A stretch of DNA of 64,000 nt from Ceratodon purpureus (Eukaryota; Streptophyta; Bryopsida; Pseudoditrichales; Ditrichaceae). How positions within the stretch are numbered: position 1 is the first letter of the stretch; every line of letters begins with the position of its first letter. The stretch covers positions 28,107,037 to 28,171,036 of the forward strand of contig CM026426.1 of the NCBI GenBank assembly GCA_014871385.1. Reading direction: 5' to 3'. A model generated the notes under the pieces. That model did no database searches and was not told the origin of the DNA. It saw only the letters and a program-made list of their open reading frames with translations. Position numbers and translations under genes: made by a program. Positions 19,001 through 44,671 of this stretch are shown piece after piece.

Positions 19001-19831
19001 AAAACATATTAGTCAAAGAACTCATGAAAAAAGATTTCTTATGCATAGGTCCACAACAAAGTCCATCTTCTGTGTAACATTTAACGAGCATCGTAGCACA
19101 GTGAGTATTAGGGTTGATGTGGTAAGTAGGGTTTCCACCTAAATAAGAATACCATGCTGACAAAAGAGTACATGCTGTCTTCAACGTTCAACTACGCAAT
19201 CGAGTTTGTGACATAAGTATAAAACCCTCCAAAAATGAGGGTCTCCAACATGCACATTGACAACGCACGGCTCTTACCTTGGGGAGAGTATTCCGACATG
19301 TTTGCTTGTGGCAACTGCTCGTCTCCTTGGGAATTGTCATCGCCCTCCAAATCCTGACTCGCGACTCCAACATCATTTTTTCCTGACGTAAATCTGCTGC
19401 TTCTTCGACGCGGTTCTCCACTAGGTGCTGCGTCTTTGCAGGTGCGTGATCTCTTTCTGTTCACGAAACCCGAGTTGCTACAATATATACAGTGTGAGAG
19501 TGAATTCCCAGACAGGCGTCTTCGACTAAACTGCGTTTTCTACTGCAAGATAACATATGTTATCTCACATACTGAAGGAAGAAAACCTAAACTGGAGGAA
19601 CCTATAAATCTCCATCGTCCAAATTGACACGTGGCTAAGATCCACGTATCAGAAATCACCAAATAGAGTTAAACAGTATTACACTCACAATTCATCTGCA
19701 GCTTCTTGTACAGTCCTGCGGAAGAACTCTTCGTTTCTAGCCTTAATTGCGTCCCTTATTTGCTCGTACTCATTTGGAAGATCAGGTGTCTCATCGTTCT
19801 GTGAATCAGATGTGGAAACTTCTTCTCCCAT
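16089..19831 (-). CDS. CACTA ORF1, Transposase_24-type protein
   Basis: Seven exons on the minus strand with canonical, phase-matched GT-AG borders: 19831-19689, 19477-19278, 18991-18012, 17840-17760, 17394-17083, 16556-16512, 16361-16089. They give 678 codons including the stop, 677 aa and no interruption. The start is the ATG at 19831 (MGEEVSTSDSQ). Residues about 1-280 are low-complexity and charged. The middle (FDRMVKTWLRKEHERVK, then NQWESLRKYWN, then GRDGYAGKHAKLKRERET) is the plant Ptta/En/Spm Transposase_24 (PF03004) region. It is followed by a short helical stretch and a C-terminal module (IGDEVWLGDPANPKKHVDSG ... LEDALGSSVLWLRD) like that seen in other plant proteins of this type. 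The family accompanies Tnp2 in CACTA elements and is thought to bind the element's ends. It lies divergent from Tnp2, with about 2.1 kb between starts. Confidence 0.85.
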
Positions 19832-24900: not shown

Positions 24901-27711
24901 TATTTTACAAGCGTTTTATTTGTCAACAAGTAATAAAATTGTATTTGTGAAATATGTATTATGAATAAATTTCTTCGTTGCTTCGGTTGCCATTCGTTTT
25001 TCAATCCTTTTTTTTTTTTTGGTTTTATTAAGATTGTGAGTATTAAATTGTGTTGTTGCTTGATCCATGTTGTTCGTAACGAGTTCTTGTCAACTAGAAC
25101 GTATCACTCTGTTTCAATGAACCATGTGATTAGAATAAAACTCCTTAAAATTCTGCTTTAGTAACATTCGTCTAGATTCTACACACAGAGTTCTGGTCGT
25201 CCTTTCTGATTGTTGTCATAGTCTAATATATATTTCCCCAATATTCTGGAGAGACTACGTTAAGATGATTACTACAGTGATTCGATAATGCAATTGGTGT
25301 TAGTCCACATTAACAGCACTTATTCGTTGTGAATGCACATTTATCTATGAGACTGTCCGATTTTATTAAATTTTTAAACAGTTGTGAAGAGTGCGTCTGT
25401 CGTAAGCATGATTAAATTGTGTTTCACACAGTGTTTAAAGTATCTGTACTGCCTTATTGAGTGGATTACGTAGAAATCAAGCGACAGTTTGCTCCAGCGG
25501 TGTCTACTAACTGAACTCCCCAATTAAGATGGATTTCTGAAACTAGTAAAGGTTAACAAGGGGTATTATAACTGTCTTATGTCACCTTGTACCAATGTGT
25601 GCCCTCATACATGTACCTACTGTCGTTTTTTATCTGTTATAATTCAATTGAAGTGCCTAATAGTACTATATACGTAATGGAAATGGAATTGAAAATATTA
25701 CACAGAGCTGAGCTTCTGATCATTGTTGTTGCAGCACCTAGCAATTCGAAACTCCCTCGACATAATGCACTGTGAGAAGAATTTTGCTCAGAATCTGCTG
25801 AAGACGATATGCGGTTTCAAAGAGAAAGATAGTGTGAAGGTCAGGAGGGACATGCAGCGTGAAGGAATTCGCCCACATCTCTAGATGGTGAGAGACCCTA
25901 AAAACCCCTCTAGAATGTTGAAGCCACATGCTAATTATGTTCTCACACCCCAGGAGTTCGACACATTCTGCACAAGATTGGAGAACATCAAGGTTCCATC
26001 CGGTTACTGTTCCGAGATCGGTGCTCACATCAGGAGTAAAAAATTCGGAGCCCTTAAGTCACATTACTACCATATTCTGATGCAGACCCTCATTCCACTT
26101 GCTTTACGAGGGCTTATGGAACCCAACACTAGGATGGAAATTATGAGATCCTGTCGTGTTTTTAGAAGAATATGTTGTAAAGTGTGGGATCCTGATCAGA
26201 CAGAGAATCTAGAGGAAGACGTTGCAATCACCATGTGCTTAATGGAGATTGCTTTCCCGCCTACTTTTTTTTGATGTCATGTCTCATCTCCCCCTGCATC
26301 CAGTTAAGGAGTTGATTATCCTTGGTCCAGCACAGGTACGCTGGATGTACCCTGTGGAGCGAACAATGATGACCTTGAAGAGTCACGTCAAGAATAGAGC
26401 GAGGCCGGAAGCATCCATTGCTCACGGGTACCTGCTAGATGAGACTATGGGGTTTGCTACCTCATACATGCACGGCTTCGCCGTAGTGAGACGTAGAGTT
26501 TGGGACGCAGACCTTGAAGACTGCGCAGAATTTGAAGTTCTTGAAGGTGCGGCAACTGAAGTTATACTTTCTCGAGCAGAGTGTGACTTAGCACACAAGT
26601 ACGTCCTGCGAAATAGCACATCAACGGCTGGATATTATAGGTATTATCAACTTTCTGTGAAGGTCAAACTTCTTGCTTACTGAATTTCTGGCTGTCGTGT
26701 TTGGAACGTCTAGAGTATGTAGACATTTCAGTGATTGTTGATGGTGTATCACCTTAGACGTTGGCTAATAGTGTATTCCGTTAGGTCGATGGAATTAAAC
26801 TTTAGATTATTCAATTAACGTAGACACTGTTTTCATTCAGTCTCTGACCTTTTTTAAATATTCTTACAATTGTTTTTTCATTGATATGCAGCGAATAGGA
26901 ACATGAAAGAGAAAGACGTGGAGACGAAGTAGGTCCGGTGGAGACTTGGATGAAACACAGAGTTCACTCTCATGTCAAGGACATGTCAGATCCAGACGAA
27001 CATGATACCGTGATGATATCGAATTCTCCTTCCTTGACATGCAAGACTTATTCTAAAATGAAAGCTTATGGGAATCATTGGAGAGTGGACAATGATAACA
27101 ACAATTTGAATGGGACGTATGATAGTGGAGTTGCTTGTTTCAAAGCCAACACCCATTCAGCAGGTGCAGGTAAAGATTATGTTGGCATACTTAGAGATAT
27201 ATTAGTTTTAGACTATGGAGTCCTGAAAACACCAATTACGTTGTTCAGTTGTCAATAGAAGAAGCGACATGATAACCACGGGAATAACACATACATCCGG
27301 GATGGAGACGGGTTTCTTGTTGTGAATTTCAAACACAACACCTCTAAGACAGTTGATCCATTTGTATTCCCTAGTCAGTGCACACAGGTGTTTTTTGCAA
27401 CAGATGATTTGCACCCAATAGGTTCAGAATGGAAGGTCGTCTTGCGGAAGGATGCCCGATCCAGGAGGATGACAGAAGATGATGATGACATTTTTATAAC
27501 CACAAACGTGGATCGCACAGGGGATGTCCCAAGTTCCGCGTTCCAAAGCCACCCTGATGAACCGAATCTTGCTGGAGCAATTATATTAAATGACACAGAA
27601 AACGCTTTGGCGTTGCAGAGTTTTGAAAGGCTTGGTCAGAGAGCGCGCCGTGATGGCAGAGCAGACAAGGGTGACACATCTGGAAATAAGAGAAAGCGTA
27701 GTCGGAAATAG
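21914..27711 (+). pseudogene. CACTA Tnp2 transposase (TNPD-like), broken
   Basis: Inferred exons are 21914-21980 (uncertain), 22168-24129, 25735-26640 and 26892-27711, with matching splice phases. Domains in order: a transposase-associated zinc module near 22221-22330 (RIPCPCSLHRG, then VERHLLRYGR, with one expected Cys now His); Tnp2 (PF02992) from LPADNCLPESMYQAK through CPVCGSPRYKDM, LMRWHCENLSRDGK, SCDGICPF, RAQVPFEYFDVWIRPLIDEL and LDIMHCEKN; DUF4218 (FGALKSHYYHILMQTLIPLA, YPVERTMMTLK); and DUF4216 (YDSGVACF, LDYGVLKTPITLFSC). Breaks: +1 slips in T runs near 23154-23160 and 26265-26272, and TAG at 23839, 25882, 26896 and 27256. Those at 25882 and 27256 sit where Trp is expected. Total exon length minus the two extra bases is divisible by three (about 1,250 codons). 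The product would be the DDE transposase that cuts the CACTA ends. Confidence 0.85.
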
Positions 27712-28492
27712 CACTCTGCTTTCTTCGGTAAGTATAGTGTTGTACTCATTTGCAAAATATTTGTTTTATAAATTATCATAATAGTCCTTTACGATTATTT
27801 GATTGTCAATGCTAAGAGGGTGACAAATCGCAAGAAATTGAAATCGTAAATACATAGAAGTCTGTCTAATTCAGAAACTATGCCCAGTATTAATGTCTGT
27901 GTACTTTGACATGCCTCAGTCTAGAGAAGCTATGCTTTGCGTCTTCACTGGATCAGGACAGCAATAATAACTTCAATTTCAAAACTAGAGTGTAGACCAA
28001 GTGAACTTGCTAAATAACAAAATACCAGAGTGTGTACATGGTGTCTTTATCGACTTATCTTAAGCTTCCGTTTATTTTACTTAATGACGTGATTGATATA
28101 GGTGAACAGGGTCCAAGACTCACTTTTGCTGTTTCTAAAAATTTCTATGCCAAGAGTGTGAGGTTGTCGTGGAACAAGTTTGGTATATTGTGTCAATACT
28201 GTTGTAAATAATATGTTGAATGAATCAGAGTTCAAGATTATCCAATCAAAATGTGTCTATATTTTACAGGTAATAGTCTCTTGAAGATTTTTTAACCCCA
28301 AAATGTATTAGGATACACGGTAGTCGTTTATGTCAAAAGGACATGTGTTTAAGTCCATCACAATGGTCTGTTCTGCTTGTGTTTCTACACAATGTGAACA
28401 TGTTACCTGATCTCGGTTTTCTTTTTCCCCCGTTCTTAAGTATATGCATTTTGAGAACTAATTGTGTAGACCTTTTGCTTAGATTGTAAACA
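27712..28492. other. CACTA intergenic DNA, left of the nested insert
   Basis: Non-coding sequence downstream of Tnp2. It ends in AACA, the first copy of the target duplication of the nested transposon. Confidence 0.6.
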
Positions 28493-28515
28493 GGGTGTAA
28501 GTATGCTAGACCCTA
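28493..28515 (+). repeat. Nested transposon left terminal inverted repeat
   Basis: Twenty-three bases starting GGGTGTAAGTATGC, identical to the complement of 42911-42933. Three GTAC motifs follow within the next 60 bases. Confidence 0.9.
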
Positions 28516-30580
28516 TATACTTGTGGCAAAATGGCGGAGTACTAAAACTACACAAAAGTACTCAAATGTACTCAGTATTGGCGCAGGGTTTTAATTTTGG
28601 CCACGGAGTTGAGATCAACGGTGGAAATTGGATCCGTGAATCCTCCAATTGGGAAAGGGGTATCTTAGGCTCGGTGGCAGCGAAGGAATGTGTCTATATC
28701 CGGAGTAGGACACGGTACTTTTGGAGAATCCCATGGTCTGACATGGTACATGGTCACTAGACAGGGTGGACCAGCATGGTATCACGTTCTTATGGTCAGG
28801 CCACCTAACCCTGCGACCGTGGCAGCCATTTATACCTTGACGCGTGTTGAACCAAGGCCAAGAATGGAAGCAATGAATCCTATGTGATTTATTTTCCTAG
28901 TTGGCATCCAAAGCCCAAATGGAACCCACCGAACTTTTATTTGAAATGCTCTAAGTCTCATCCAACTTTGTCAATCTAAAATATTTATAAGGCAATATGC
29001 TATGGTTTCGACAAGATGCATAATATTAATGTGGATGTTGCCTGGATGAGAGTTCATGTCTTACGTTTTTTGGAATGTATGGAATATTTGTTAACCCAAT
29101 AGAAGTATTGTTTATTCTATTCGACCCAAATTCCATTGAATATGATATTAAAATGAGTAAGGAAGGGTATATATATTATTATCTCATTTTAATTTATTTG
29201 AACACGCATGTAATTCAAATAATAGTATATTCTAGTTGGATCTAAAATGTAATTAAATCAATATCTAGCATAGTTCATCGATGTATGTATATTATAATGA
29301 CAGTTTCCAAAGTGATATTTTCAAAATCACCATGTATTGTGAACCGTTGATTGTTGTAGAGGGAAAATAATCATTTATGAGGGTTTGCTATAAATAATGT
29401 GGGTTACAATATATATTGATTCCAATGATGTACACTTGTATTTCGTTCCTCATAAATTATGCATGTATATATTATATACATATATTTAAATGGTTCCAAG
29501 TTTTAATAAAATTTGTAGAATTTCATTGAATTCATTTTATTGTCCCCCTCTATCTTCTTATATTTTATTATTTCATTACTCTTACATTCAATCTCCCCAT
29601 GTTTTTTTTCTCCATTACTCTCCCATCCTATCTCCTTCTTAAATTTGTTTCTATTTCTCTTCTCCTCTACCTTCCTATATTTTTAATATTTCATTATTCT
29701 TCCATTCAATATTCCCATAATTTTTTCCCAATACTCTTCCATTCTATCTTTTTTTGTATTTTTTACTATTCATCTTCCCCTCTATCTTTTTATGTTTTCA
29801 GTATTTTATTATTCTTCCATTTAATCTCCCCCCCCCCTTCTCTCCTCCCTCTTTTTCAAACCTACTCCCCCCCCCCCCCCCCCATTCCCCCCCCCCTTTT
29901 TCCCCCCTTTTCTTCCGCCCTTAATTTTCCCTTTAAATCTCCCACCATTTGTTTTTTCAATTTTTATTTTTTTTATATTTCTTTCACTCTATCTCCTTAT
30001 ATTTTTATTTTGTCATTATTTTTTTAATTAATCTCCTCCTTCTTTTTTACTTTATTTTTTTTTAATACCTTTATATTATTTTTCTATTTAAATACCCACG
30101 TAAACAATATCACAAGGTGTATTCTAAGTAGTTTGGAATTAATAAAAAATTATAATACATTTAGTGCAAGCATGTATTTAGAATTATCATTATTCTATAA
30201 GTGATTTATTTGTATTTTTAGATTGTAGAAACATTTAATACCCATATAAATGAAATCATATAATGTAATCTAAGAGGCTCATAGTGAATCAAAAATAGTA
30301 TGAAGTATAGTGGGAGGATGTATTTCGTGTATTCCTTATTCTTTTTTTACATTTATTAATACTCTAATATTGTGTATGTTATTACAATTGAGACTTGGAA
30401 CTAAAATAGAGGTTTAGGGTACATGGGTTCAAAAGGAATTTAAAATTGACAAGCATTCTTATAGATAATTAAAACACCATTTACACAATTATAATAGTTC
30501 TTCTTGGGTACAAGATAGTATAATGGTTTAACATGATGGAGAATTTGACATCTTGGGCTGTATGGAATTACTAGTTAATG
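28516..30580. other. Left non-coding arm with polypyrimidine tract
   Basis: No gene is seen. From about 29540 to 30070 the plus strand is almost pure C/T apart from A-containing TATTT blocks. The phrase TTTCATTA(T/C)TCTT(C/A)CATT recurs near 29568, 29688 and 29800, spacing about 115-120 bases, so the tract looks like a degenerate tandem repeat. C runs longer than 15 lie at 29868-29883. The open frame 29599-30027 is a by-product of this composition and is not called. Confidence 0.55.
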
Positions 30581-30587
30581 TCTCATT

Positions 30588-30790
30588 GAACCGGTGATCA
30601 GAGGATAAGGTTTAGAATCGCAGTCTTCAGTAACCGGTGACCGAAGGTTGCGCATCGTGAGCCACTAGTGACCGCCGGTGGAAGGCCCCGTCACCGGTGG
30701 TAGCAAGTTTGGGGGAGTTTCTCTTTGAGGATGACCGGTGATCACCGTTTCCTCACCATCATCAACAGGTGATCACCGGTGGTCGTCTTC
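30588..30790. promoter_or_regulatory. ACCGGTGATCA motif cluster upstream of gene A
   Basis: Six variants of a half-palindromic motif occur within 200 bases: AACCGGTGATCAG (30589), AACCGGTGACCG (30632), GACCGCCGGTGG (30670), TCACCGGTGG (30691), GACCGGTGATCACCG (30733) and AGGTGATCACCGGTGG (30767). They end about 320 bases before the gene A start. The arrangement resembles a multimeric protein-binding promoter or a transposase/regulator binding array; function is inferred. Confidence 0.45.
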
Positions 30791-31108
30791 TTCCTCATTC
30801 CTCGGGGGTGTAGGGTGTCACCCCTAGTTGACAGAGAGTCGTTGAGGCGGCGGGAGGTGATGGTGTTGGTGGTGAGGAGATTGTGCGTGACGGCCTGAGG
30901 ACGAGGCGTATGAGTTTCCTTCTTTTCATTCTAGGGTTTAGGGTGGGGCGAATGGGTTTTCGTAGCGATGAGGGGGGGTTCTGAGGGAGAGGCGTATTTT
31001 CCAATACATGTTGGAGGAGATCGGGATTGACTGTGTGAAGGTGCGACATATCGGTGGCTTCAGAGAAGGTGGAGATCAAAGGCAGGTTGCGAGAAGTGAT
31101 TAAGGAGG

Positions 31109-34100
31109 ATGGAGGGGTCTGCTGGACGGCGTTCGGGGAGCACATACAGCGGGAGAAAGTCCCGACAGAGTGCACAAGCGGGGCTGGATGAGGAGATCGA
31201 CATCTCTGAGGGTGTAGGCGTGAATCGAAGGCGTTCCGCGCCGAAGAAGACTCCAAGGCCGATGATAGAGCGGATCGACCAGGTGGACTTGGAGATTTTG
31301 AGGTTACGGCCGCCACCGCGAGCACTGACACGAGAGGATTTCATGCGGGAGTACCCAACTCTTGCGAGCGATGGCGAAAACCCACATCGATTTCGGAAGG
31401 GACGGGTGTCTCCTGCTTTGTTGAAGGAATTATTTGGAGACCCATACGGCGATGGGGGACGCCAAGGTTATGGGTGGGCCCGTTGCAAGGAGGCGGGGGT
31501 GGTGAAGAGGATTCAGTACCTTCACCCAATTCTCTACCAACATCCAAGCAGTGAGATTCCTCCTTACCTAAAGATTCATTTTGCCAAGGGTGTTGCAGTC
31601 GAGTTCGATGAAGGGAAAGGGAAAGTAGATTGGTGTGCCTTTGGAGCTGACACTAATAAGAGGCAGGTTAATCGATATGAACAAAGTGTCGAGAAGTTGT
31701 TGGCTTTGACGAAGACGCTAGAGGGGGATAAGCCTCTAGAGGTTCGTGGTAGAGAGTGGGCAAAAATTAAGGTAGAGCCAGGGGTGCGTGGGGAAAGTCC
31801 AGGATGGAGTTCAGGGGTTAGGAGGGGAGATGTAGGAGACAGAACTTGGGAAGAGGGGAGGACGAAGTCGAGGCTGGGTGAAAGCGGCGGTATTTTCGAG
31901 TCTGGCATGGGATCAGGGGTGGATGTTGAAGGTGGTACAGAGTATGCACGCAGAGGAGGATCATGGACTCAAGGTAAACTATATCTTTCCATCTCTACGT
32001 TTGTATATGTATTTTCTGTCTTGCTTCTAAGTTGCTCAAATAATTGTGTTCAAATGGATTTGTCAATTGATGTGAGTTGTTGTTGACCTGTCCATTTCTT
32101 TAACATACGTGAATTTGTTGCATTGGTTGCTCCTGGCCTGATGCGCAGAATCGGTGAAGGAGAGGGGCAGGGAGGTACAGGAGCTCGTCACTGTGTTGAC
32201 TGTGGAGATGGAGGCGGACAGAGTGCGGGAGAAGGAGGCTCTCCAAAAGAGAGATCGGTGTAAAATGAAGGTGGAGCAGTCTGAATGTGTCTTGGAGAGC
32301 TACGAGCACCAGAAGGTGGAGAAGGGGTTGAAGATCGATGCCATGGTCAGTGAGGGAGGTGACGTTGATCGGGAGAAAATTAAAATGGAGCTCATAATGG
32401 AGCAATTATGCGATGAACAGTCTCGGCTATTGGGTTTAAGAGAAGATCTAGAATCGGCAGAGGCAGAGGTGGCCAACATGGCACATGGAATCGAGGCTCA
32501 TCATTTACAGTACAAAGCGCTGAAGGCGGAGTTGTTCGAGTTGCAGAAGGGAAAGGTTTTAGGGTCATTTTGGCCACGGCCCATGGCTTACTCAGAGGAG
32601 AAGGGTGCACAGGTTTCAGATCGAAGTGGACTTCTGGAGATTTCTACTTGTTCACTGTGTCAATTTCCGTTTCCTAACAGTGACATTATTGTATCATCTT
32701 GTAGGCACTTGTATCATCCCTATTGTGCATCGATTGTTTTTGTGCATGGAGGTACATGTACTGCTAAGGGGTGCCAAAATTTATCACATCCGGATTGGCA
32801 TAAGAGTTTTGGCTGGGGAGAGCCTAGTGCCGAGCTGCTTCAGAGGGCCGAGATGCTTGGATGTGCCGAGGAGCAAAGGAAAACCTTGCAACTAAGAATG
32901 GAGGAAGCAAGAGCAACTTGTCCGAATGCCGGTAAGTTTTCAAGCATAAAATCTATATATTCTTGCTAATTCGTTAGTACCTAGGAGTATGGTTCAGCCT
33001 CTTATGAGTGAATCTGAATATACGGTAAGTATGCTAGGTCTTTGTTTGGTAGTTTAAGGGTGTGCTAACTATACATTTTTGTAGTGTGATTAGTTTGTAA
33101 ACAGTGGTTGGCATAGCATTTAAAGTACGTGCCACTCTAGAGTTCTAAGAAGTACATTCGTCAACGTGATTTGTGTTGTCCACTGCTACTGTTACGTATT
33201 CACAGTGTTTAGAGTACTAATGCATGAGCTGAATGGAAACTGCAATTTCAATGCAATATACTTATAGTACACTTATAGTTCATCATATACTGACTAGGTT
33301 AAAGGGTATGTATTTGAGTGTACATTGACTCCCTACCTTAGAAGAAGTCGTAGTATACAATGTGATATTAGAAGTCCTTTTGTACATTAAGTGTACTTAG
33401 AATTAACTGTGCTGAATGTATGGAAGTATATAAGAGGACTTTAGAATACTTGATATATCTGGTTTCTGTATTTGAAGTACATTGGTATGATACATTAGAT
33501 TACTTGTTATATATGTTGACTAATGCTTAGGTACTTTTCTTCATGTACTCCAGGTGCATCTTATACTCGGGTTACAAACACTCTGCTTTTGTACGCATTG
33601 TATACTATGAGGTAAGATTTATTTTTGCTTATGTATGTATGGTATTGTTCATGGGTGCATGCAGTATGACTTGTTAGTATTATCAGTACTAATGTCTGCA
33701 CCCCCTAGTTGTACACTGTCGTGTAATAGAAGTACCCGTTTTTTAAGATGTGGTTCAGAATTATAAGTAACAATGATATATTTCGTGGGATTTCAGGCTT
33801 GTCGTATCCGAAAATCGCTCACCCTACTTCAAGGATTTCACCACCTAATTTCACTGAGGGTGAAGCGAGTCAAGCCACCAGCTCTCTCGTCGGTGGCCCG
33901 GGAATCTCTCTTGCTGCGTTGCTAAACCCTTTGCAACGCACTGTGAAGGAAGTGACCCGCAAAGGAGGGGTTTGGAAAGTTAAAAGCAAGGTAAAAAAAC
34001 TACAAAAGGTGGATGAGGTTGTCTATGAATGTTTGGAGACTGCTGCAGTGAGACGTAAGGGTAATGAGCCTGAACTCGATAGTGAAGATGAGTCGTCCGA

Positions 34101-35073
34101 AGGTGATGAGCGGTTAAAGCAGTTGAAGTTGCCATCATCTTCTGGAACGACGGACTCAAGTGGGGAGGAAGAAGACTCTGACGGTGAGAAGTCTGTGGAT
34201 TCCAAGGAGCGTGAAGATTCAGAAGATGAAGATGAGGAAGAAGAGGATGCTGCTAGGATGCCTACTCTAAAGTCGTATGACCCACAGTTTATAAGCCCAC
34301 AGGAGCCGCTGAGGGTGAAGATTGCTGGAGGTGAACATACTGTGGCTCCGATCGAAGAGATTGTAGCTCCAACGATGAAGATGCATGAACCTCTGAAGAC
34401 GAATGTTGTGAGTGAAGAGCAGTTGAAGAAGACAGCAGCAGTAGAAGTTCCTGGTTCCGAGTGCTTGGTGGGGCGCAATACAAGGAAGAATGATGTGAAG
34501 ACAGCTGTTGGAGCAGGAGAGCAGTTTCTAGAAGCACTGGAGGATGAGATCTTCAAAACACCGGAGAAGATTGCATTGAAGGAGTCGGAGAAATCACCTG
34601 CGAAGAAAAAGATGAGGGCCGAGAAGAAGAAGTCCAAGGAGGTGCCAAATACGGAGGAGGTAGGCCTGGAGGTTGATAGAGTTGGAGGAGAGATGGCGCC
34701 TACGCAGGAGGAAGGCGAGCTACAGGGTGAAGAAGACGCACAGGTGGGGAATGATGAGAGGGTAACCGGGAAGGATGGCCATACAAGTGGATCGAAGAAG
34801 CGGAAAAAGAGGATGGAACAAGAGAAGGATGAAGAACAGTTTCCGACTTCGATGGAGAACCTATACAGTGCAAAGCATACTACTCTTACTGCGCTCACAG
34901 ATTTTGCAGCGAGGCAGGGTATTGTAGAGGGTGGTGAGGACGCTAAGGATGACAGTGAGAGTCCCCAAGCCCCGGTAAAGTCTCCGGCTGGACTAGGTAG
35001 AGTCATGACACGGTCACAAGAGAAGCAAGCACTGGCGCCTGCACAGGTAAAGAAGAGGAAGAAGCGCCGTTAA
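31109..35073 (+). CDS. Gene A: coiled-coil RING-like protein of the nested element
   Basis: Three exons (31109-31973, 32149-32931, 33797-35073) join in phase across GT-AG introns and give 974 aa without interruption. Residues 1-288 are basic then mixed, with an unfamiliar conserved-looking block (GENPHRFRKGRVSPALLKEL ... QGYGWARCKEAGVVKRIQYL). Residues about 290-430 are a charged coiled coil. Near 455-500 is a C3H2C3-like finger: CSLC, then SCRHLYHPYC, then CTAKGC, followed by HPDWHKSFGW, which fits a RING-type fold and hence possible ubiquitin-ligase activity. The last 420 residues are acidic (EDEDEEEEDAA) with Lys-rich patches ending KKRKKRR, a likely nuclear signal. Intron 2 is crowded with GTAC. 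The gene lies just upstream of the SET gene on the same strand. Function in transposition is unknown; the exon model is well supported by phase and splice sites. Confidence 0.75.
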
Positions 35074-35354
35074 GAAGTAGATTTTATACGTGGCTACGGA
35101 ATGTAGCCACTGTGATGTATCTCCAACCTTGCAACGAGGCTGCTGAAAAAGGAGCCGGGGGTATTTGCTCCCTTTTTTGTTATTGTTTATTTGTGTATTT
35201 CTGGTGCGGCTTTGAGTTCATTTGTGCATGTGGGTGTATGTAACTACAACATGTTTTCAGCTATGGTGGAAAATCAGAATTCTTCTCAATGTTTAATTCT
35301 TGGCCCTTGACTGTTTTGGGGCTTTTTTTTGGGGGCTAGGACCCGTACCAGACT
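35074..35354. other. Spacer between gene A and the SET gene
   Basis: Non-coding, about 280 bases. At 35150-35176 GGAGC and GCTCC pair around an 11-base loop, flanked by an A run before and a T run after. This may be a 3' end signal of gene A; weak. Confidence 0.3.
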
Positions 35355-36427
35355 ATGCCCTGGTTTGATCCTGGAGATTTGTCGAGGGGGATGGAGGCTA
35401 TACCTATTCCAGTCTGTAATCCCTATGCTTATATGTCGCCATTCCGGTACATGTCCAACAGCAGGGTTCATGAGAAGGCCGCTCTGAATTTGAGCCTTTT
35501 CTCTCCGAAGCTTGGGAAATGTTGTAATTGTGGGCCTCGGGATTGTTTAAAATCTTTGCAGCCTTGTGAATGTGGAAAGGAGTCAGGTGGAGAGATAGCC
35601 TACAAGGAGGGTGGCATCCTCAAGGACCGGTACCTTCAGCACGGTGGCAACAATTCCCTTGGTTGTAAGAGGAAAAAAAAACTCTATTCGCATGGTGGCT
35701 CAGTGATTTATGTGGAGAGGAGGCTTAGTGCCTTGTGCGGTAATCGTGGATCACGCAGATTCATTAGAGAATGTAGTGTCAGGTGTGGCTGCCACAATGA
35801 ATGTGGTAATCGTGTTGTTCAATAGGGGATGAAGTATCCAGTAGAGATTTTCCATACGGGCCATACTGGATGGGGGGTGAGGGCAAGTAGACCCCTTCCA
35901 AAAGGTGTGTTTCTCTTCGAGTTGGCTAGGGAGATTCTCACAAATGCTGAGATGATTCTTAGAAATCTTGTAGCCTCACCTGGACCATCTTTCGCAATGC
36001 AATTGGATGCTGATTGGGCCACCGAAGCCAAACTTGATGACAACTCTGCGCTCTGCTTGGATTCCCAAATTTTTGGTAACGTGGGAAGATTTGTAAACCA
36101 CAGGTTTGTAATCCAGCCGGCTGATATGCATTACTGTAATGGTTCGAAGTCGTTTATTTATGTCTAATGAAAATGTGTGTTTCTTTTAGGTGTGAAGATG
36201 CCAACTTGATTGAAGTTCCAGTGCAGATTGACGAATAGGACAAGAGCATTTACCACGTTGCATTCTTCACAAATCGAGACATTTTGATTCATGAAGAGTT
36301 AACTTGGGACTACGGCTGCGACTTTACCTACGAAGACCCTGATTTGCCTTCCTTTGCATGCAAGTATGGGAGTAGCTACTGTAGGGATTGGCGTAGTACC
36401 TTTGTCGTATCTCGTAGATCACAATAA
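35355..36427 (+). pseudogene. Gene B: SUVR-like pre-SET/SET histone methyltransferase
   Basis: Two exons, 35355-36103 and 36190-36427, joined in phase (AG+G) at the NHRC motif. The text follows plant SUVR1/2/4-type H3K9 methyltransferases from end to end: AIPIPVCNP; pre-SET cysteines (CCNCGPRDCLKSLQPCEC, then ESGGEIAYKEGGILKDRYL, then CSVRCGCHNECGNRVVQ); SAM-binding GWGVRASRPLPKG; DADWATEAKLDDNSALCLD; GNVGRFVNHRCEDANLIEVP; HVAFFTNRDI; and ELTWDYGCDF. Oddities: the EY-x-GE motif reads FELAREIL, and the post-SET CxCG reads CKYG. Two in-frame TAG codons interrupt it (35823 and 36236). With those the frame would be about 328 codons, short because the long N-terminus of host SUVR proteins is missing. 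The gene lies inside the transposon termini, so it is cargo. The product would methylate histone H3 lysine 9 in chromatin, if active. Confidence 0.85.
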
Positions 36428-36828
36428 AAAAGCTTTTCTAAATACTAAGTGACATGAATCTTGCGTTTAATTAATTGTAAACACTAAGTGCTACATTGAA
36501 GTACTTACAGCAATTGACTGCAAAGATCCTTTGAATGCCGCATTTTTGTCCAACAAAGAACTTAAGTTCTGAATTACAATGAAGGATCGATCCAGTTAAA
36601 GAATAAATGGTCATAGTAAATTAGAAAGTAAATACGAATAGTATCCAAACTGTTACGAAGAGTACTCGAAATACCACAAAGAGCCATTCAAATACTACAA
36701 AGAGTACCCAAAATTAGTACATATTATACATTCCAATTTACATTAAAATACACAGAGTACTAAAAAGCACTAAGTTCTTAACATTAAGAGTACTTGTAGT
36801 ATCCAAAGATACTCAAAGTTCTAGTTAA
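36428..36828. other. Tail-to-tail spacer between genes B and C
   Basis: About 400 bases between two convergent stops, AT-rich and with many GTAC motifs (for example GAGTACTCG, GAGTACCC, GAGTACTAA, GAGTACTTG). No coding content. Confidence 0.6.
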
Positions 36829-39800
36829 CTACTCCTCATGGAATGCCCACCAATCGCGCAAAGCATCTTCACATACTCTCATGGTCTCGCTGGACATCTT
36901 GTATACTGGAGAGCCCTTGGCCCTATGGGAAGCCAATATCATGGGGAATTTGCACGCTCTGACTAGATGTGCATCGACATGCGCCTCCACAGCTTCATTG
37001 CAAAATAAATACGTTTTATCCCCACGTCCGTGCTTCTTGAAGTATTTTGCCCTAATAACTTCATCCCCGGCGGCAAAGACGCCCCCCCATGGACATTCGA
37101 GGGGCTCCTGTATCTCAAACTTAGATCTGGTGCACTGCAAGATGTAGAAATCCACGCCGTCTTCATTCTCCTCTTCTGCAGGTATCATGAAATTATCGCC
37201 AACCTCAACCAGGTCTCCTAAGACCAACGACACGCCATCATGCACCCAATTACCTTCACCGTCCATTTCCTCCATCTGTGCCGCCACTGAAGAAGCGCTC
37301 TCCGGAACCAACCTAGCAACATTCCAGCCCTGCACATGAGATGAGTTCAAGCAATTAGCCCAATCGCCATCAACGCATGATATACAAAAACAGGATAAAG
37401 CACGTGTCGTGAGAAGAGTAGGGTCAGATTCAGAGAAGCCCATGATGGAATAGAGTGATTTAGATCCTGGCAGAGTGTTGCAGCGGATGCTCCTGTCACT
37501 ATGAACGACCTCCTTCTCTCTAATGTGCCAAAATACACGAGAGAGGGGTGGAGCCGTGCTGATCTTTGTCCGCCTGTAGGAACTCTGAACCCGCTCAGTA
37601 TACTTTTCTTGTAGAAAGTCAACAACTTGTGCAGCATTCGCCAATGGCCTCAGAGGATTCTGGATTTGCTCGGCACTCAACGCCCTCTTCACGACCGCCC
37701 CGGCCCCATCCCACTCTCCCTTCCCATGAGCAGTCTCAAAATAGTTCCACCGCATCTTGCATCCCTTAGTGAGCATGGGATATCTAGCCACGAAGTACAT
37801 AGCTGTTGCACATTTGAACTGAGCGCTACAGCCATCACTATACACCCAGTGTTCCTCCGGAATAAATCCTGAGTCCTCTAACCAGTCCCAATGCAAAAGC
37901 AAGCAATGTTGGACATAAGCAGAGTCGTGATCTTTGTCATCCGATATGTAAAAGTGCGTCTGCTTCATTACGGTATCCCCTTCTTTCCACATTGTAATAT
38001 GGACAAGGATGGTTACGGACGTGCTGAAATAGTACAAACTTTGCAATTCATTCTGAATAGCAAAGCTATAATTTTCTGCAAAATCGATATGAGACACAAG
38101 TACTCCCTCCGGGACGTTCTTCATCATTAATTGACATTGCTCATCCTGCCACCTCGCTCGGAAGTTGTGGGTGATGAACGTGGACACTGTTTTCTCCATG
38201 TACGACAAAAACTCTTTCACAGGAGTATCCCTGAAAGCCTCTCTGAGCCGCTTCTTGGGCCTTCCAGTCCTCTTATCAACGCCAACCTCATAGTATTCGA
38301 AACACTTCCACTTCACAAGAAAGGAGTCAGTACTAGACAACTCGAAAGGGCAAAGGGGAAATAAATGGAAGCCACAATCTGGACACTCTCCCATGAGACA
38401 ATCAAGCTTGTGCCACACATCCAGTTCTCCTTTCGGGCACACACAAGATTCCCACATCATTGTAATGCGCTTATAAATTGCCTCGTGTGCATGGCAAGCC
38501 CCTTCAGCCTCACCCTTACATACTTGACATCCACAGTTGCACGTGATCCTTGAATGCAACCCCCTTAGCTGATCTCTGAGATGGCTCAATCCAACCTTCA
38601 TGAAGTCCATTTCTACATGGTATATACAACAGCATGTGTTTCGTTCCTTCAATTTCCGAACCCACCATGGTTTCAATCTCTCGAAGGCTCTCTGGCGCAC
38701 GTTGCACTCTGGATGAGCCTCCATAAAACGCAAAAAGAATGTTGTCTGTCAACCATGGAGACATTTTCCAAAAGTGTTATACTTGTTGTACTAAAAGTAA
38801 TAAACCTAGGTACAATATGTTATGAAATCAAGTACAAGTTATACAACGGATTATATTAAGTACATTATCCTTGGGTTTGTGTTTACATCCAGTACAAGAA
38901 ATACAACGGTACTTCGAACACACTAACCAAATGTACCGAGTATAGACGACTCCTACACTCGATGAGTATGACATATACACAAAGTATATTGGCGTTCATA
39001 CATTTAAGCTTAGCTGTACATCGCCAGTACAGAGGACTTATCACAAATATCACCTACGTACATCGTCAACTACATAAGTACATGTAAAGAAGAACAACAA
39101 GAAGCAGAGTATTTAATATACACAACTGCTTAACCAAGTTATACCACTTTGTATATTAGCAGTACTTGTTGACCACATTAATACATTCGGCCCTACGTTA
39201 GTAAGAAATCAAGTACATAGTGCTCTATGTATTGGTATGATATTGACGACCTTGTACACTATGATTGAAAACGCAGAGAAGGAACAAAATGAATGTACAA
39301 CATGTATGTTCAGTGGAAGGTCTTACCTGTGTCTCGCAGAGGTAGTGCGTAGGATGAGGCTCCACCCACAGATTTCTGCCTACCTTGTGTTTAACAACGT
39401 CCTTTTTGTTTGGCGAAACCTTGGTCTGTCCATTCCACCATATCTCAATCTGGGATTTGACGTAATCTGACAAGCCTCCTCTCTTCTGTCGATTGAGGCG
39501 AAGCCGAGGCACTATCTCTTCAGGACTCAATCCATACACTCTTCTATTCATGGCTATATTGATGCTAGACGTAGAAGTATCCAATACACGTGACAGTGCT
39601 GACACTCCATCGACTCCCAAGCTTACTGCCGCATCTAATAAAACACTCTTTCTTGCTAATCGCTCGTTCGAGTTTGCCACCTTCACCAACTGCAACTCGT
39701 TCTTGAAATTCTCTATGAAACTGTATGTGACCTTCGCCTCTTGAGGCCTAGGATAATACAGCGGTAATAGAGGCCAAAAAGCATTATGCCTCATGACCCT

Positions 39801-40124
39801 CTCGACAGTTTCTCTTCTACTAGAAGGACCGGGACAACTCCTCAACTCTCCAACAATATACTTCACTATTCGCAAAGAGATCCGATTCAACTCCCTCACT
39901 GACATCTGATCAGGTGTGTCATCATGTAAAGGGTTTGAAGCAAGACCTCGTGTTTCCTCCTCTCTCTCTCTCTCACGTGCTCTTTGTAGAGCCTTACGTG
40001 CTCTTGCCGTCTCTCTAGATACGGCTCTCTGCTCTTCCTCCAACCTGTCTGCAGCAGCCCTGGCTGCAGGACCAGGTCGACTAACACCCCCTCGCACTCG
40101 TTGCCTCTTTGCAGTATTCCCCAT
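36829..40124 (-). CDS. Gene C: DDE-like transposase of the nested element
   Basis: Two coding exons, 40124-39327 and 38745-36829, join in phase 0 across a GT-AG intron (donor CAG|GTAAGA, acceptor TTGACAG) and give 904 aa with no interruption. The start is the ATG in MGNTAKRQRVRGG, the first in the exon after a 5' leader intron. The N-terminus is Arg-rich and helical. At the exon join the text reads THYLCETQ then TTFFLRFMEAHPE. Cys/His-rich segments follow at about 330-400 (CNCGCQVCKG, CPDCGFHLFPLCPF). The catalytic core is read as HIDFAENYSF (Asp near 487), VYSDGCSAQFK (Asp near 570) and ETAHGKGEWDG (Glu/Asp near 603-612). This DDE-like layout recurs in uncharacterised proteins of invertebrates and non-seed plants. 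I do not know its superfamily name with certainty. The 4-bp target duplication fits cut-and-paste integration. Confidence 0.72.
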
Positions 40125-40240
40125 AACTGACACCCTCAAATATGAACACATAAAAATGATGAGTACATAGAGGGTGCAAATTATAGCAATGAGCGTAGTA
40201 CAATTTAAATGTGTCTACATGAAAATGTAAAAGAACTTAC

Positions 40241-40626
40241 CAAACTGTAGTCGCCTGTCACCGCCTAAATGCAATGGACTCGCAGCTACTAGTGGGGGAA
40301 CCTATGGAAAATTGTACATCAGATAGAGAAGGCAGGTACTCGTAGCTACTATAGGAATCTACACTAACTGCGGTTGCAAATAGTGCACGCCTCGGGGACT
40401 CTTCAGACACGGTGTTGCATTTGCCTAGATAATAGTCAGGGTTCCCTTGTTTAGAGACAGGGGTTTCAGAAACGTAACAGGAGTCGCTAGTCTCGCTATC
40501 CACTGTGTAGAGAAGGGATTCTATCTCGGTACTAGCGGAGAGCAATCCCAGAGAGAAGCCTTTTGCAGGGAAGTACGAAGTAATTAGTCTCTGGACAAAG
40601 AGGGACTGCTGCCTGGACTTAGACAT
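40241..40626 (-). CDS. Upstream ORF in the gene C leader exon
   Basis: An ATG-led 122-aa frame (MSKSRQQSLFVQRLITSYFP ... ESIAFRR) ends at 40258. The exon then runs to a good donor, TTTG|GTAAGT, at 40241. The next acceptor (ATTTGAG) lies just before the transposase ATG at 40124. So the ORF and the transposase seem to share one transcript, with the ORF in the 5' leader. The protein is Ser/Thr-rich with no known domain. It could be a regulatory upstream ORF, a second cistron, or simply 5' untranslated sequence. Confidence 0.4.
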
Positions 40627-41488
40627 TGTTTAGCGAACAGTTCTGTAAATCGCATATTCTAGCAAGGAAACAAAACAAGAGCCATGAACAAACTGTAGTT
40701 GAATTCCAAGCGACACCGAGTAGACACAGAATACAGCAGAGCACAACGACTAGGGAGAGAAGAAGAGAGAATCCAGGGCGGCGCCGACGTGGAGGCCAAA
40801 GGGTTGCTAGTGGCGGCGGCATCTTAGACTCGGCGCCCCTAGAAAATAGGATCTTGATTATCCGTTACCAGAGAATGTACTCACTGTATGTGGAAACTTA
40901 GTGTACTCATTGCATGTACATACTGCATGTACTCACGGCGTGTACACACTGCACATAATAAATTAATTGCATACCGTGTTGTTTGATAAGAGCCTCGAGT
41001 GTAAATATTTGGATTGGTTGTCATTTCCTTTGAATTGACCAGCCGACGTTGATATTGCGGATAAATATTGATCCTGTGGAGAATATTTATTAGTTTTTAA
41101 GCTTTGCGCTTTATAAATGAATCTTGTGTATTTCACGCCAGCTAACGTGGATAAACATGAAGGCTACCTTAAAATTACTGTTACAGGATGTGAATTTCTA
41201 AACGTCCAATAAGATGTAGAGGAATATATCTTTGTAACAATGTGCATTTGCAGAACAATAAGCAGTGTAGTTGCAGTGACTTAGAGAAATGCGAGATCCT
41301 TCAACTTGATCAGAGTTTACACCTGTTAAAAATGAAAAAAGACCCCTGACAGCTTCTGTGCAGTTGCGACAGGTACCAACCAGGTCTCCTACAACTAATT
41401 AGAACCTCATTTACAAGGGGAGATTTTAGACACATGATACATCTTGCATGTAATCACTGCGGCCGACAACAGGAAATCAACATAACCC
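40627..41488. promoter_or_regulatory. Probable gene C promoter and right subterminal DNA
   Basis: A GC-rich stretch at 40720-40840 (GGCGGCGCCGACGTGG, GGCGGCGGC) lies directly upstream of the leader exon. It is followed by repeated GTACTCAC/GCATGTAC units at 40875-40950. No coding content is called. Confidence 0.4.
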
Positions 41489-41810
41489 TTAACTCATATA
41501 AAAATTCATAAACATTGCAAAGACGCGGTTCCAGATGTCTACATCTTGCGCGAGCTCCCGTTCATGATCCAAGCCAATGCGGATGAGGAGCAGAGTGGTT
41601 AAGACGCTGGCGTTCACCATAGCAACATGATTCTCGAAGGGCTTCTCGAATCCGAACACGTCTGCAAGGAATTGAAAATGCTCCTCCAACTCCCGCTTGT
41701 CCCACCATAGTTCCACCTCGTCCTCTTCAACAGATGTTGTTCTCAGCACGGCCTTCTGTATATCACCAGGGCCGAACAGTTCGTCCATCTCCTCGAATCT
41801 CAAGTCCTGT
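41489..41810 (-). CDS. Short unidentified exon or small gene
   Basis: A minus-strand frame of about 107 codons (DLRFEEMDELFGPGDIQKAV ... VFAMFMNFYMS) follows a plausible splice acceptor, TTTGACAG, at about 41811. It has strongly protein-like composition and no stop until 41489. Upstream exons could lie at 41950-42290 but cannot be fixed. No family recognised. It sits between gene C and the right end of the nested transposon, so it would be a fourth cargo gene. Confidence 0.35.
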
Positions 41811-42910
41811 CAAAGTTCTTCAACTCCACTGTTACATTGACTTCCCACCTGAACAAGTTGAACAACAATATAAGTATCTAGAAATCAAAACGTGGTGATT
41901 AAATATACAAATGCTAATGCCAAATGTGTGGTAGGTTTTTCCAAACCTGAAAAAGACGTACTCGAGCCTCCTCTTCTTCTAATAGTCTGATACAAATTCC
42001 ACCCCTTCAGCTCTCTCATTCTCTCTAAACAAAACCCCTACATTTGTATGAACCTAGAACCTAGTAGAAGATGAAGGTGCTAAGACAAGGGTATGTTGAG
42101 TGATTGAGGGAAGGCACTGGTGCGCATCCACTGCTGTGCATGCGGTTGAAATGCAGAAGAAAGGCAAAGCAGAAGAAAGACGCACACCTGACTAGGTCTC
42201 CACGCTGGAATAGCTGTACTGAAAGTTGCAGGGAGAACACAAGGCAGCCGTTGACGGCGCTTGGCGTCCTGAAATGTAGGATCTAGGGGCAAGAAATTGA
42301 TGGTGGAGATGAGCGATGCTCACCACGAACGGTCAAGATCTACCGGAGTTCTGTACATTATATACTCTGAGTACCTTTTGTACAGATAGAACGCAGTCGC
42401 ATGTATGAAATGAAATGACGGGGAAACTGGTTTTTCATGTATTCTTTGATTAGCCATCTTAGAACAAGCATTGGGCACCCAAAATCCGCGCTCGGATCCA
42501 CAAAAATCTTAATTTTACATACACTTTCCCCCCGCCAACTATACAGTACTAATTATGCAGACCCACCCCAAATGTGTAATCTCGCTTCAAATGTTCTAAC
42601 GGTTTTGAAAAGAACATTCCATTGCCTATCTCTTCCGAGAGAATGGACAAAATCCATGCAATTTCAAATAAATATTTCTGTACTTTTCCTTTTTTTTGTA
42701 CTTGGGACATATGAAGTGAACCCGTCATAAGTACAAAATTAACATGAGCAATTAAGTTTTACAACCCTTTCAACAATGGTAATATGATCTTCGACATCTT
42801 ACCTATTCCTTTCTGAGATCAAAACCTGCAAAAACATTGAGGCTTCATGCTTTTTCAAAGTACAAAGCTAAGGTACTTTGCCATATATTGTACTGTGACT
42901 TAAAAAGTAC
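41811..42910. other. Right subterminal region of the nested transposon
   Basis: No gene is fixed here. GTAC motifs recur at 42350-42390 and crowd the last 90 bases before the inverted repeat (AAAGTAC, GGTACTTT, TTGTACTG, AAAGTACT), mirroring the left end. Confidence 0.5.
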
Positions 42911-42933
42911 TAGGGTCTAGCATACTTACACCC
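42911..42933 (-). repeat. Nested transposon right terminal inverted repeat
   Basis: Exact complement of 28493-28515; ends ACTTACACCC and is followed by AACA, the second copy of the target duplication. Confidence 0.9.
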
Positions 42934-44671
42934 AACAACACATTTTTCATCGGATTTTTTGAGGAAGAGTTAGAACGAGGGGGATTACTAGTTCTGTGTT
43001 TGAAACTAACGATATCTGTATGTTTGACTGGCTGCTGTCCAAAGTCATGAGTGTATCTGCAGAAAATAGGCCTCGAGATGCCTAGGGATCGATTATTGCT
43101 CCGATCTAGGTTCATAAGTTTAATTCAAAGTGCCCACTCGTTTCAATTGTGCCTTGTTAGCTTCAACCACGTACTGAAAGGATTCTGTGTTTAGTCAAGG
43201 AGGCTCTGAACTTTAATGTGCGTCTGCCAGGAAATTTTTGAGAACACCAAATCGAAAGACGTATTTGACACATTTTTATTTTAATTGTAATAGCCAGGAA
43301 ATGTTCATTGCGCATTTCAGAAGATACTTGTGAGTTCTTTGAAGCTAAGAGTAAACGGGTCTGCTCCTCGTTTTTATTTCAAAACCCAACTGCTAATTAC
43401 AAAGCTTGTTGCATCCGTAGCATTTGCGAATGTACAATTATTTGTGGTGACCCTGGTTATACTGTTAAAAATCCATTTACATTTCACCAAAAATACTAAG
43501 TTAAATGCTTCGACTGTAATGTTGCTACAAGAGCAATAGTAATTCTGAAAACTATACTCAGATCAGAGCACTTAATTTTTTTTCCAATTAACACCAAGAG
43601 TTCGTTATTTCTATGTCATTACGAACAAAAGAATTTTGAGATGACGGCAATGTTGAAACACTAGTACATGATTATGTTAATTCTGCAATTTTGATATCAC
43701 TCTGCTGATTTGTTGTACTGGAAATGTGTGGAACGTGCAGGTGGCACCCAAACAGGCGTCATTACGTTTGAAACCACGTAAATGAGAGGCACATTAATGT
43801 TTAAGATGATTGGCCTGGACTAATCATGAGTCATGCAGAAGAGACATAGGGAGGAATCGGAGTGGGCTATGTTGTAGGATCTAAACCGTAGCTTGCAATC
43901 CTCTCTCACTCAGGTGAATGATGCCACGAGATGATGTTGAACGATCGTGGTGTGTCGCAACCTATCTCTAATTGCAGCCTTTCTCTGTTGGGTACCCTAT
44001 GTTGTTAGAGTCATGTATCATTTGAGTACCTATAGTGGGGCTTATATACCCGTTAACGGGAAGGTGATCACCTGGATTCTTCATGAGATAAATTGCGCCA
44101 TAACTCTTTCGTCCTTGCTTTCTCAGTTGATCTTCTCTTAGGCAGCCTTCTCAGTGACGACGCTACATTTTCAGGGGCTGCGTGAGCAAGAGGTGCGCAA
44201 TCTGATGGCTTTGTATGTGAATCTTGTTTTCGTACTTTGTTTCTTATAGTCATCGCTATGTATCAGTTCATTTTGACAATTTTTTCTCTTGAAGTTGTCT
44301 GCTACGATGCTCGAAGTTTCGCGTGTCCTGTGCTCTAGAATAAGTGTGTCGTAGTTCGTCTATAGCTTTGACAGTGTGCACAACGAGCTTTAGTGGAGGT
44401 AGCGAGCATTGTGATTTAGTCCAATTATATGATGCTATTACATGCGCTTCAATTGTTTCGTGCAGCCGTAATTATTTTTGAAGTTTGCTTAGTTTGATTT
44501 ATCAGAGTATACGGCTGTGATCTGATAAACCCTAGAAGTATTGATTCTGGATGGGAATGATGTTTTCTTTCGACCCTTTTTGGATTTCGTGACATGTTGT
44601 TCAGAGGCATCATGAGATTGTTTACAATTGTGCGCTCTTTTTTCTATCTCCCGCAGAATCAGGGTCCCACA
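42934..44671. other. CACTA DNA right of the insert, nothing recognised
   Basis: Continuation of the CACTA element after the nested insertion. Short frames exist but none has family motifs. Confidence 0.5.

Follow-up and report, generated by a model that had tools for sequence, protein, structure and literature searches.

A cut-and-paste transposon family of the moss Ceratodon purpureus carries a SUVR-like SET gene and a coiled-coil/RING-like gene

In this study, we analysed a 64,000-nucleotide stretch of the Ceratodon purpureus genome (the window; C6:28107037-28171036) and describe a DNA transposon that carries a SET-domain gene and a coiled-coil/RING-like gene alongside its transposase. The host contig C6 measures 110.5 Mb in an assembly of 362.5 Mb and 151 contigs. 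Window positions 28493-42933 form a single element of 14,441 bp, with perfect 23-bp inverted ends and the tetranucleotide AACA on both sides (Table 1); a preliminary description of the locus had named these ends and flanks, and both hold letter for letter. The transposase is encoded on one strand, and the coiled-coil/RING-like and SET genes on the opposite strand. Terminal inverted repeats together with a duplication of fixed length, here 4 bp, place the element among cut-and-paste (terminal inverted repeat, DDE/D) DNA transposons. Inside the window, no further match to the 23-bp end was found at up to five mismatches, and one site was found at six. Genome-wide, at up to three mismatches, the end gave 77 forward and 81 reverse matches, against none in either orientation for a backwards control.

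Table 1 Features of the transposon, in window coordinates
Feature	Position	Strand	Basis
Left target-site duplication AACA	28489..28492		sequence
Left terminal inverted repeat, 23 bp, GGGTGTAAGTATGCTAGACCCTA	28493..28515	+	sequence; genome-wide matches vs zero control
Coiled-coil/RING-like gene exon 1: 288-aa N-terminal region, no Pfam family	31109..31973	+	in 10/10 other fetched copies
Coiled-coil/RING-like gene exon 2: coiled coil and RING-H2-like zinc finger	32149..32931	+	finger in 9/10 other fetched copies
Coiled-coil/RING-like gene exon 3: acidic/basic low-complexity C-terminal region	33797..35073	+	reading frame
SET gene exon 1, encoding pre-SET and the SET core; frame broken at 35823-35825 in this copy	~35355..36103	+	PF05033 1.5e-12
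SET gene exon 2: SET end and post-SET; interrupted at 36236-36238, one post-SET cysteine replaced	36190..36427	+	alignment
Transposase exon 2: Cys-rich region, DDD catalytic core, C-terminal region	36829..38745	-	frame, alignment
Transposase exon 1, N-terminal 266 aa	39327..40124	-	frame and splice ends; start inferred
Right terminal inverted repeat, 23 bp, exact reverse complement of GGGTGTAAGTATGCTAGACCCTA	42911..42933	-	sequence
Right target-site duplication AACA	42934..42937		sequence

The same ends delimit further copies. From the 158 end matches counted, 100 were listed, and pairing of neighbours facing each other within 60 kb gave 35 end pairs spanning 12.5 to 45.3 kb, none shorter. Eighteen of these, the window copy among them, measure 12.5-15.2 kb; the other 17 measure 21-45 kb and, being paired by proximity, may join ends that belong to different elements. 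About half of the pairs are far longer than 14 kb, perhaps through nested insertions or extra cargo. SET sequence lies within 33 of the 35 pairs (27 by the listed matches, B11.1 and l43.56 by sequence, and four by fetched pieces), a count that leaves the pairs at C6:7441846 and C12:12892626 unread.

We fetched in full ten of the other 17 copies in the 12.5-15.2 kb class, which is a length-selected set. All ten have matching ends and each its own 4-bp duplication (TATT, TGGT, TTAT, ACTA, TGTA, ACCT, CCTT, CTAA, ACCC and TTTA in window orientation), and all ten contain the N-terminal region, pre-SET/SET and transposase sequence. The RING finger stretch is found in nine; b5.23 keeps just the first 105 residues of the RING exon. 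We grouped the copies by DNA identity into subfamily A1 (the window copy, c18.46, i32.40 and p84.24), subfamily A2 (m56.25, n57.35, s89.30, o74.58 and b5.23; about 78-92% identical to the window copy over larger blocks, with identity dropping at the left end) and subfamily B (B11.1 and l43.56; about 71-73%, patchy). More distant members lie on C9 (13,256 bp, perfect 21-bp ends, GTTT duplication) and C8 (14,448 bp, ends alike at 18 of 20 positions and recovered by a looser search, TTCT duplication). In both, order and strands are unchanged from the N-terminal region, RING and exon 3 through pre-SET, SET and post-SET to the transposase, with zero stops in any matched stretch and with the SET intron present.

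Sites free of the element, with one copy of the target, were found at two paralogous loci. For b5.23, a 76% identical paralog (locus L011) crosses the joined flanks with one GGGT. For m56.25, 40 genome matches to the joined flanks were scored, of which 37 cross the junction, two are its own flanks and one stops short; the best of those cut out (L060) is insert-free with one ACTA-like site (ACCA). The preliminary description had read the locus as one transposon and had looked to further full-length copies, with SET, RING-like and DDE genes between matching ends, to bear this out; such copies are present in this genome, and the gene set recurs in other copies and subfamilies. Same-ended copies consistently devoid of SET and RING, which it had named as contrary evidence, were not observed. 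We regard the anatomy of the element, and the membership of SET and RING in its cargo, as close to certain.

Protein searches of the genome yielded the same association. In these, 70 transposase places were scored of 1556 candidates, 150 RING places of 1718 and 150 SET places of 1024; the SET search gave 215 matches, from which we used the 149 listed first-exon places, omitting one later fragment. Within 12 kb and on the opposite strand, among the listed matches, the best 70 transposases had a RING neighbour in 48 cases, SET in 51, both in 40 and either in 59. None had SET or RING on the same strand within this distance, and after shifts of 0.1-1 Mb only 0-2 transposases retained such a neighbour. 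Similarly, 86 of the 150 best RING places had SET within 12 kb on the same strand and none on the opposite strand. By hand count, the matched stretch was stop-free in 38 of 70 transposase matches and 111 of the 149 listed SET matches.

The gene pieces diverge broadly, not strictly, in parallel. Protein identities for six pieces across eight elements are correlated (Spearman 0.59-0.91), and four of the six (orf1, RING exon, pre-SET and main transposase exon) group A with the C9 member and B with the C8 member. Fixed nonsynonymous/synonymous (N/S) differences between A1 and A2 number 14/36 in orf1, 21.5/23.5 in the RING exon, 51.3/32.7 in exon 3, 3/8 in pre-SET, 1/1 in SET, 1/1 in post-SET, 4.5/11.5 in the transposase and 0/5 in its N-terminal exon, with binomial p values of 0.0006 to 2e-14 for the pieces other than SET and post-SET. 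Expressed as proportions (pN/pS), these amount to 0.10 for orf1, 0.22 for the RING exon, 0.45 for exon 3, the fastest evolving, 0.10 for pre-SET and 0.09 for the transposase. When the three SET pieces are pooled, 5 N and 10 S differences remain (p 1.7e-4). Between more distant subfamilies, the ratio of nonsynonymous to synonymous rates (dN/dS) for SET core plus post-SET is 0.22 (A-C) and 0.19 (B-D), at dS of 1.0-1.4; saturation affects the remaining four comparisons, whose pN/pS is 0.25-0.40. Within A1, dN/dS medians are 0.28-0.82, as expected because copies decay after insertion. Purifying selection kept the SET and RING-like genes during the split into at least four subfamilies, and retention of the cargo by selection is in our estimation highly probable. 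The cargo is thus of long standing, has open frames in many copies and is under selection, which shows that the proteins matter without telling what they modify.

The SET frame is open over its full 328 amino acids in two of the ten other fetched copies, c18.46 and p84.24, and c18.46 is also stop-free in the main transposase exon as well as in orf1, the RING exon and exon 3. One or two stops occur in i32.40, s89.30, n57.35, m56.25, B11.1 and l43.56. The intact protein (c18.46; L034/L035) matches Pre-SET (3.2e-11) and SET (PF00856; 6.7e-17), both above the Pfam cut-off. The GWG, NHxC and DYG motifs and the post-SET cysteines, seen in alignment with EHMT2, are kept in the c18.46, C9 and C8 proteins. 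The best matches of the intact protein in the PDB are EHMT2/G9a, EHMT1 and Clr4-type enzymes, with SETMAR (3bo5) also present. Judged by these motifs and relatives, the SET protein is probably an active lysine methyltransferase of the histone H3 lysine 9 (H3K9) type. In the C9 and C8 copies the SET frame has no clear start codon and may be preceded by another exon or be joined by splicing to the RING gene; the corresponding 5' region in the window is 35100-35355.

The assignment of this gene to the plant SUVR class, made from the window copy, is supported by identity and by phylogeny. Over long alignments, the c18.46 protein is 36-44% identical to named plant proteins, mostly SUVR4, with a few shorter alignments higher; the likeness had been called nearly residue by residue, which these values and the missing WIYLD domain reveal as an overstatement. 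Like plant SUVR4, the transposon protein has pre-SET, SET and post-SET parts; it differs in having no detected WIYLD, mostly QQGM in place of QRG-, and one intron in the region. WIYLD was not in the Pfam result of the intact 328-residue protein, where an upstream exon may go unrecognised. A quick tree of 47 rows places the 29 of transposon type (nine from this genome, 20 from the archive) in one clade apart from the plant SUVR4 rows, with an approximate likelihood-ratio support (SH-aLRT) of 99 and a stem of 0.78; P0165 and P0170 sit on long branches beside this clade and drew a program warning. Following CGNRVV/CGNRIV, 26 of the 29 clade rows read QQGM, two broken copies have X and P0164 has QRGM, while all 15 rows that we labelled plant have QRG-. 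The 20 archive rows of the clade all appear to derive from transposons. Archive proteins also occur on contigs of equal size, namely SET P0098 with RING P0191 (30,077), SET P0111 with RING P0192 (5,279) and transposase P0006 with RING P0189 (52,985), which suggests that the members of each pair share a contig. A search of this genome with cucumber SUVR4 gave 132 matches, none beginning before query residue 200, so that the donor gene of the transposon SET is unplaced.

The three exons of the coiled-coil/RING-like gene, with splice ends placed by eye, give the 974 residues of the original prediction, in which the RING call is the part that stands below the Pfam threshold. The finger of the C9 copy, likewise below the Pfam cut-off, reads C-x2-C-x13-C-x-H-x2-H-x2-C-x10-C-x4-C and fits C3H2C3 (RING-H2) spacing apart from its unusual last pair. 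Among 27 relatives of the protein, zero bear a functional name. The predicted structure of the C9 protein is poor as a whole (mean predicted local distance difference test score 55.6); it has a confident long coiled coil, most of the rest being of low confidence. In the intron between the RING exon and exon 3, at about 33024-33040, the window contains a stretch (GGTAAGTATGCTAGGTC) that resembles the inner terminal repeat, perhaps by chance.

The DDE-like transposase of 904 residues was correctly recognised, its two minus-strand exons summing to this length and its core triad being D-D-D. The start is probably the methionine of MGNTAK. In the numbering of the 631-residue open reading frame the invariant catalytic residues are D214, D297 and D339, the last two 41 residues apart; this triad of acids in a core of RNase H fold again agrees with a cut-and-paste transposon. 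A VIA fold search returned an integrase core, and plain Foldseek weak RNase H-like matches; RAG1 and Transib are absent from the fold-match lists shown, an absence that proves nothing. Neither Pfam and NCBIfam nor a profile search of PDB sequences assigned the transposase to a family, searches of viral contigs and prokaryote genomes confirmed no relatives, and it is not placed by the accessible portions of PMC4455052 and PMC10294476. A chromodomain is present in four distant relatives (P0043, P0045, P0046 and P0048), accompanied in three by a SAP domain, and forms a further link of the transposase family to H3K9me-type chromatin.

Since selection kept the cargo genes through the subfamily split, the transposon may itself write chromatin marks. 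We propose that the SET protein was acquired once from a plant SUVR-type gene, that it shed the WIYLD part, and that it would serve as a methyltransferase of the H3K9 class, which the coiled-coil/RING-like protein or the transposase would recruit to the DNA of the element itself or to sites of new insertion. The WIYLD domain of SUVR4 binds ubiquitin, and SUVR4 reportedly relies on ubiquitin by way of this domain; the co-travelling RING-like protein may substitute for this input. A heterochromatin mark on the element or its target would limit damage and let copies accumulate in poorly transcribed chromatin, such as that of C6, which we take to be a large, possibly sex-linked chromosome. C6 makes up 30.5% of the genome and holds 41 of the 53 exact ends listed, 98 of 150 RING matches and 106 of the 149 SET matches listed (65-77% of each), an excess that self-marking would fit. 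We give a probability of roughly one half to this explanation as a whole, that is, a selected three-gene set with SET as a recruited H3K9-class writer. Self-marking as the actual use of the enzyme is a tentative step beyond it. More tentative again is the full proposal that this plant transposon clade has, since before the known subfamilies split, borne a private heterochromatin-writing kit of SUVR-type methyltransferase and RING-like adaptor, which it applies to itself or to its targets, giving up activity in return for tolerance while it accumulates on one large, probably sex-linked chromosome.

Several observations weigh against this explanation. The SET protein had been described as unbroken, but in the window copy its frame shows two private stops and one lost post-SET cysteine (11 aligned copies); with the frameshifts in o74.58 and b5.23, altogether eight of the ten other fetched copies are broken. 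Neither SET nor RING accompanies 11 of the best 70 transposases among the listed matches. Two of the six gene pieces, the SET core and the transposase N-terminus, depart from the common grouping, the SET core of C9 being nearest that of C8 (0.74) and the N-terminus roughly equidistant. Taken alone, the A1-A2 SET core with its two fixed differences is not significant, nor is post-SET; the pairwise dN/dS of the A1-A2 SET core has a median of 0.5 (range 0.27-0.91), and pre-SET is relaxed between A and B (0.57). The window RING-like protein scores 19.7 bits with zf-RING_2, below the cut-off of 27.3, and no host SUVR gene was recovered from the genome for comparison. On C6, the transposase matches (35 of the best 70) are less skewed than ends, RING or SET, and the C6 excess may equally reflect poor purging. 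The frequent breakage would also suit cargo that consists of fragments of host genes, acquired at random and without a role, and transposons often acquire gene fragments. Against such passenger capture, the cargo is in all four subfamilies examined with order and strand fixed, purifying selection acted between subfamilies and the listed SET matches are mostly stop-free; we set it aside as very improbable. Separate insertion of the SET gene into the window copy is refuted, as nothing was found in its favour and SET keeps its position and strand in every one of the ten other fetched copies and in C9 and C8, besides lying inside 33 of the 35 end pairs. No sizeable inverted repeats bracket the SET gene, where only short imperfect ones were found (the longest 17 nucleotides at 82%), and a SET clade with terminal repeats of its own, which the preliminary description had listed as a sign of separate insertion, was not observed.

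If selection has kept an active protein, its use could still differ from the one that we propose. A drifted SET protein might block, decoy or redirect the host SUVR/H3K9 pathway and so keep the element active, with the RING-like protein possibly tagging host silencing factors for removal. For such anti-silencing, the intact copy yields no WIYLD match in Pfam and a stem of 0.78 precedes the clade, both of which allow for an altered function; yet catalytic and post-SET motifs are retained in intact copies of several subfamilies, and a pure decoy needs none of these, which leads us to consider it unlikely, if the strongest of these competitors. Less probable again is a non-histone substrate, whereby the enzyme would modify the transposase or the RING-like protein and regulate transposition directly. 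SET enzymes with such substrates exist, and the genes diverge broadly in parallel as interacting partners might, but the closest solved relatives of the protein are H3K9 enzymes. Recruitment of SET as an H3K9-class writer remains our preferred explanation.

A further question is whether this gene set has been described before. Lanisha is said to be the subject of a Repbase report on cut-and-paste transposons by Maumus, McDaniel and Carey from 2020, and is reportedly linked to C. purpureus. That our elements belong to this superfamily, and that their gene set was already noted in that report, seems doubtful to us. Lanisha, as cited in PMC12730594, is like the moss element a proposed cut-and-paste superfamily, and the available part of that source defines CMCT/Lanisha by C(2)C and H(3-4)H motifs between the second D and the last acidic residue. 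Comparing by description only, these CMCT motifs are reported for Lanisha and absent from the moss transposase, taking D339 as the third catalytic residue, and the gap from D297 to D339 is just 41 residues. The 4-bp duplication lies within the 2-5 bp of CMCT-type elements, whereas the ends are GGG..CCC and not the 5'-CA..TG-3' of most CMCT members, a trait that is not strictly defining.

SET genes have other mobile contexts. In the primate SET-mariner gene SETMAR (3bo5), a SET domain stands beside a transposase-derived part, as it does in the moss element; SETMAR is a host gene formed by fusion, whereas the moss SET is mobile cargo. Helentrons are without inverted ends or target duplication. 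A eukaryotic DNA transposon that bears SET is found among them: a proto-Helentron of Phytophthora infestans carries a SET domain similar to Clr4 (PMC4067079); this is an oomycete rolling-circle element, unlike the DDD cut-and-paste moss element with its pre-SET/SET/post-SET and RING-like genes. According to the accessible text of PMC12730594, HarbingerS and a SET-bearing MuDR of Phytophthora are DNA transposons that encode SET histone methyltransferases. They differ from the moss element in transposase superfamily and host group, and that passage mentions neither a RING-like partner nor selection between copies. The same portion of the source describes several lineages of fungal transposons that retain an epigenetic enzyme gene, TET/JBP; this is a DNA dioxygenase thought to allow escape from methylation-based silencing, whereas the moss SET is a candidate writer of a silencing-type mark. 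The claim that the gene set has no described parallel has to be narrowed, given the SET genes published in Phytophthora transposons; among the literature titles and abstract openings listed (Repbase reports and subscription papers lying mostly outside), we found no plant DNA transposon with a SET gene.

Transposons are usually viewed as targets of H3K9 methylation, and here one family apparently keeps a writer of the mark under selection. If the enzyme is active, it becomes testable whether transposons choose their own silencing, whether self-silencing accounts for the accumulation on a chromosome that is large and possibly sex-linked, and which role the RING-like protein has in place of the WIYLD part of SUVR4. 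There is also a practical side, as many of the cucumber SUVR4 matches are transposon SET places, so that tallies of SUVR genes in mosses may run too high through the inclusion of transposon copies.

Just upstream of the element, the plus strand of the window (23113-27708) holds remnants of a CACTA/EnSpm-type transposon, with matches to Transposase_21 (5e-48) and DUF4218 (1.8e-23) and a match to DUF4216 below the cut-off. A weak Transposase_24 match is found on the minus strand at 17943-19187.

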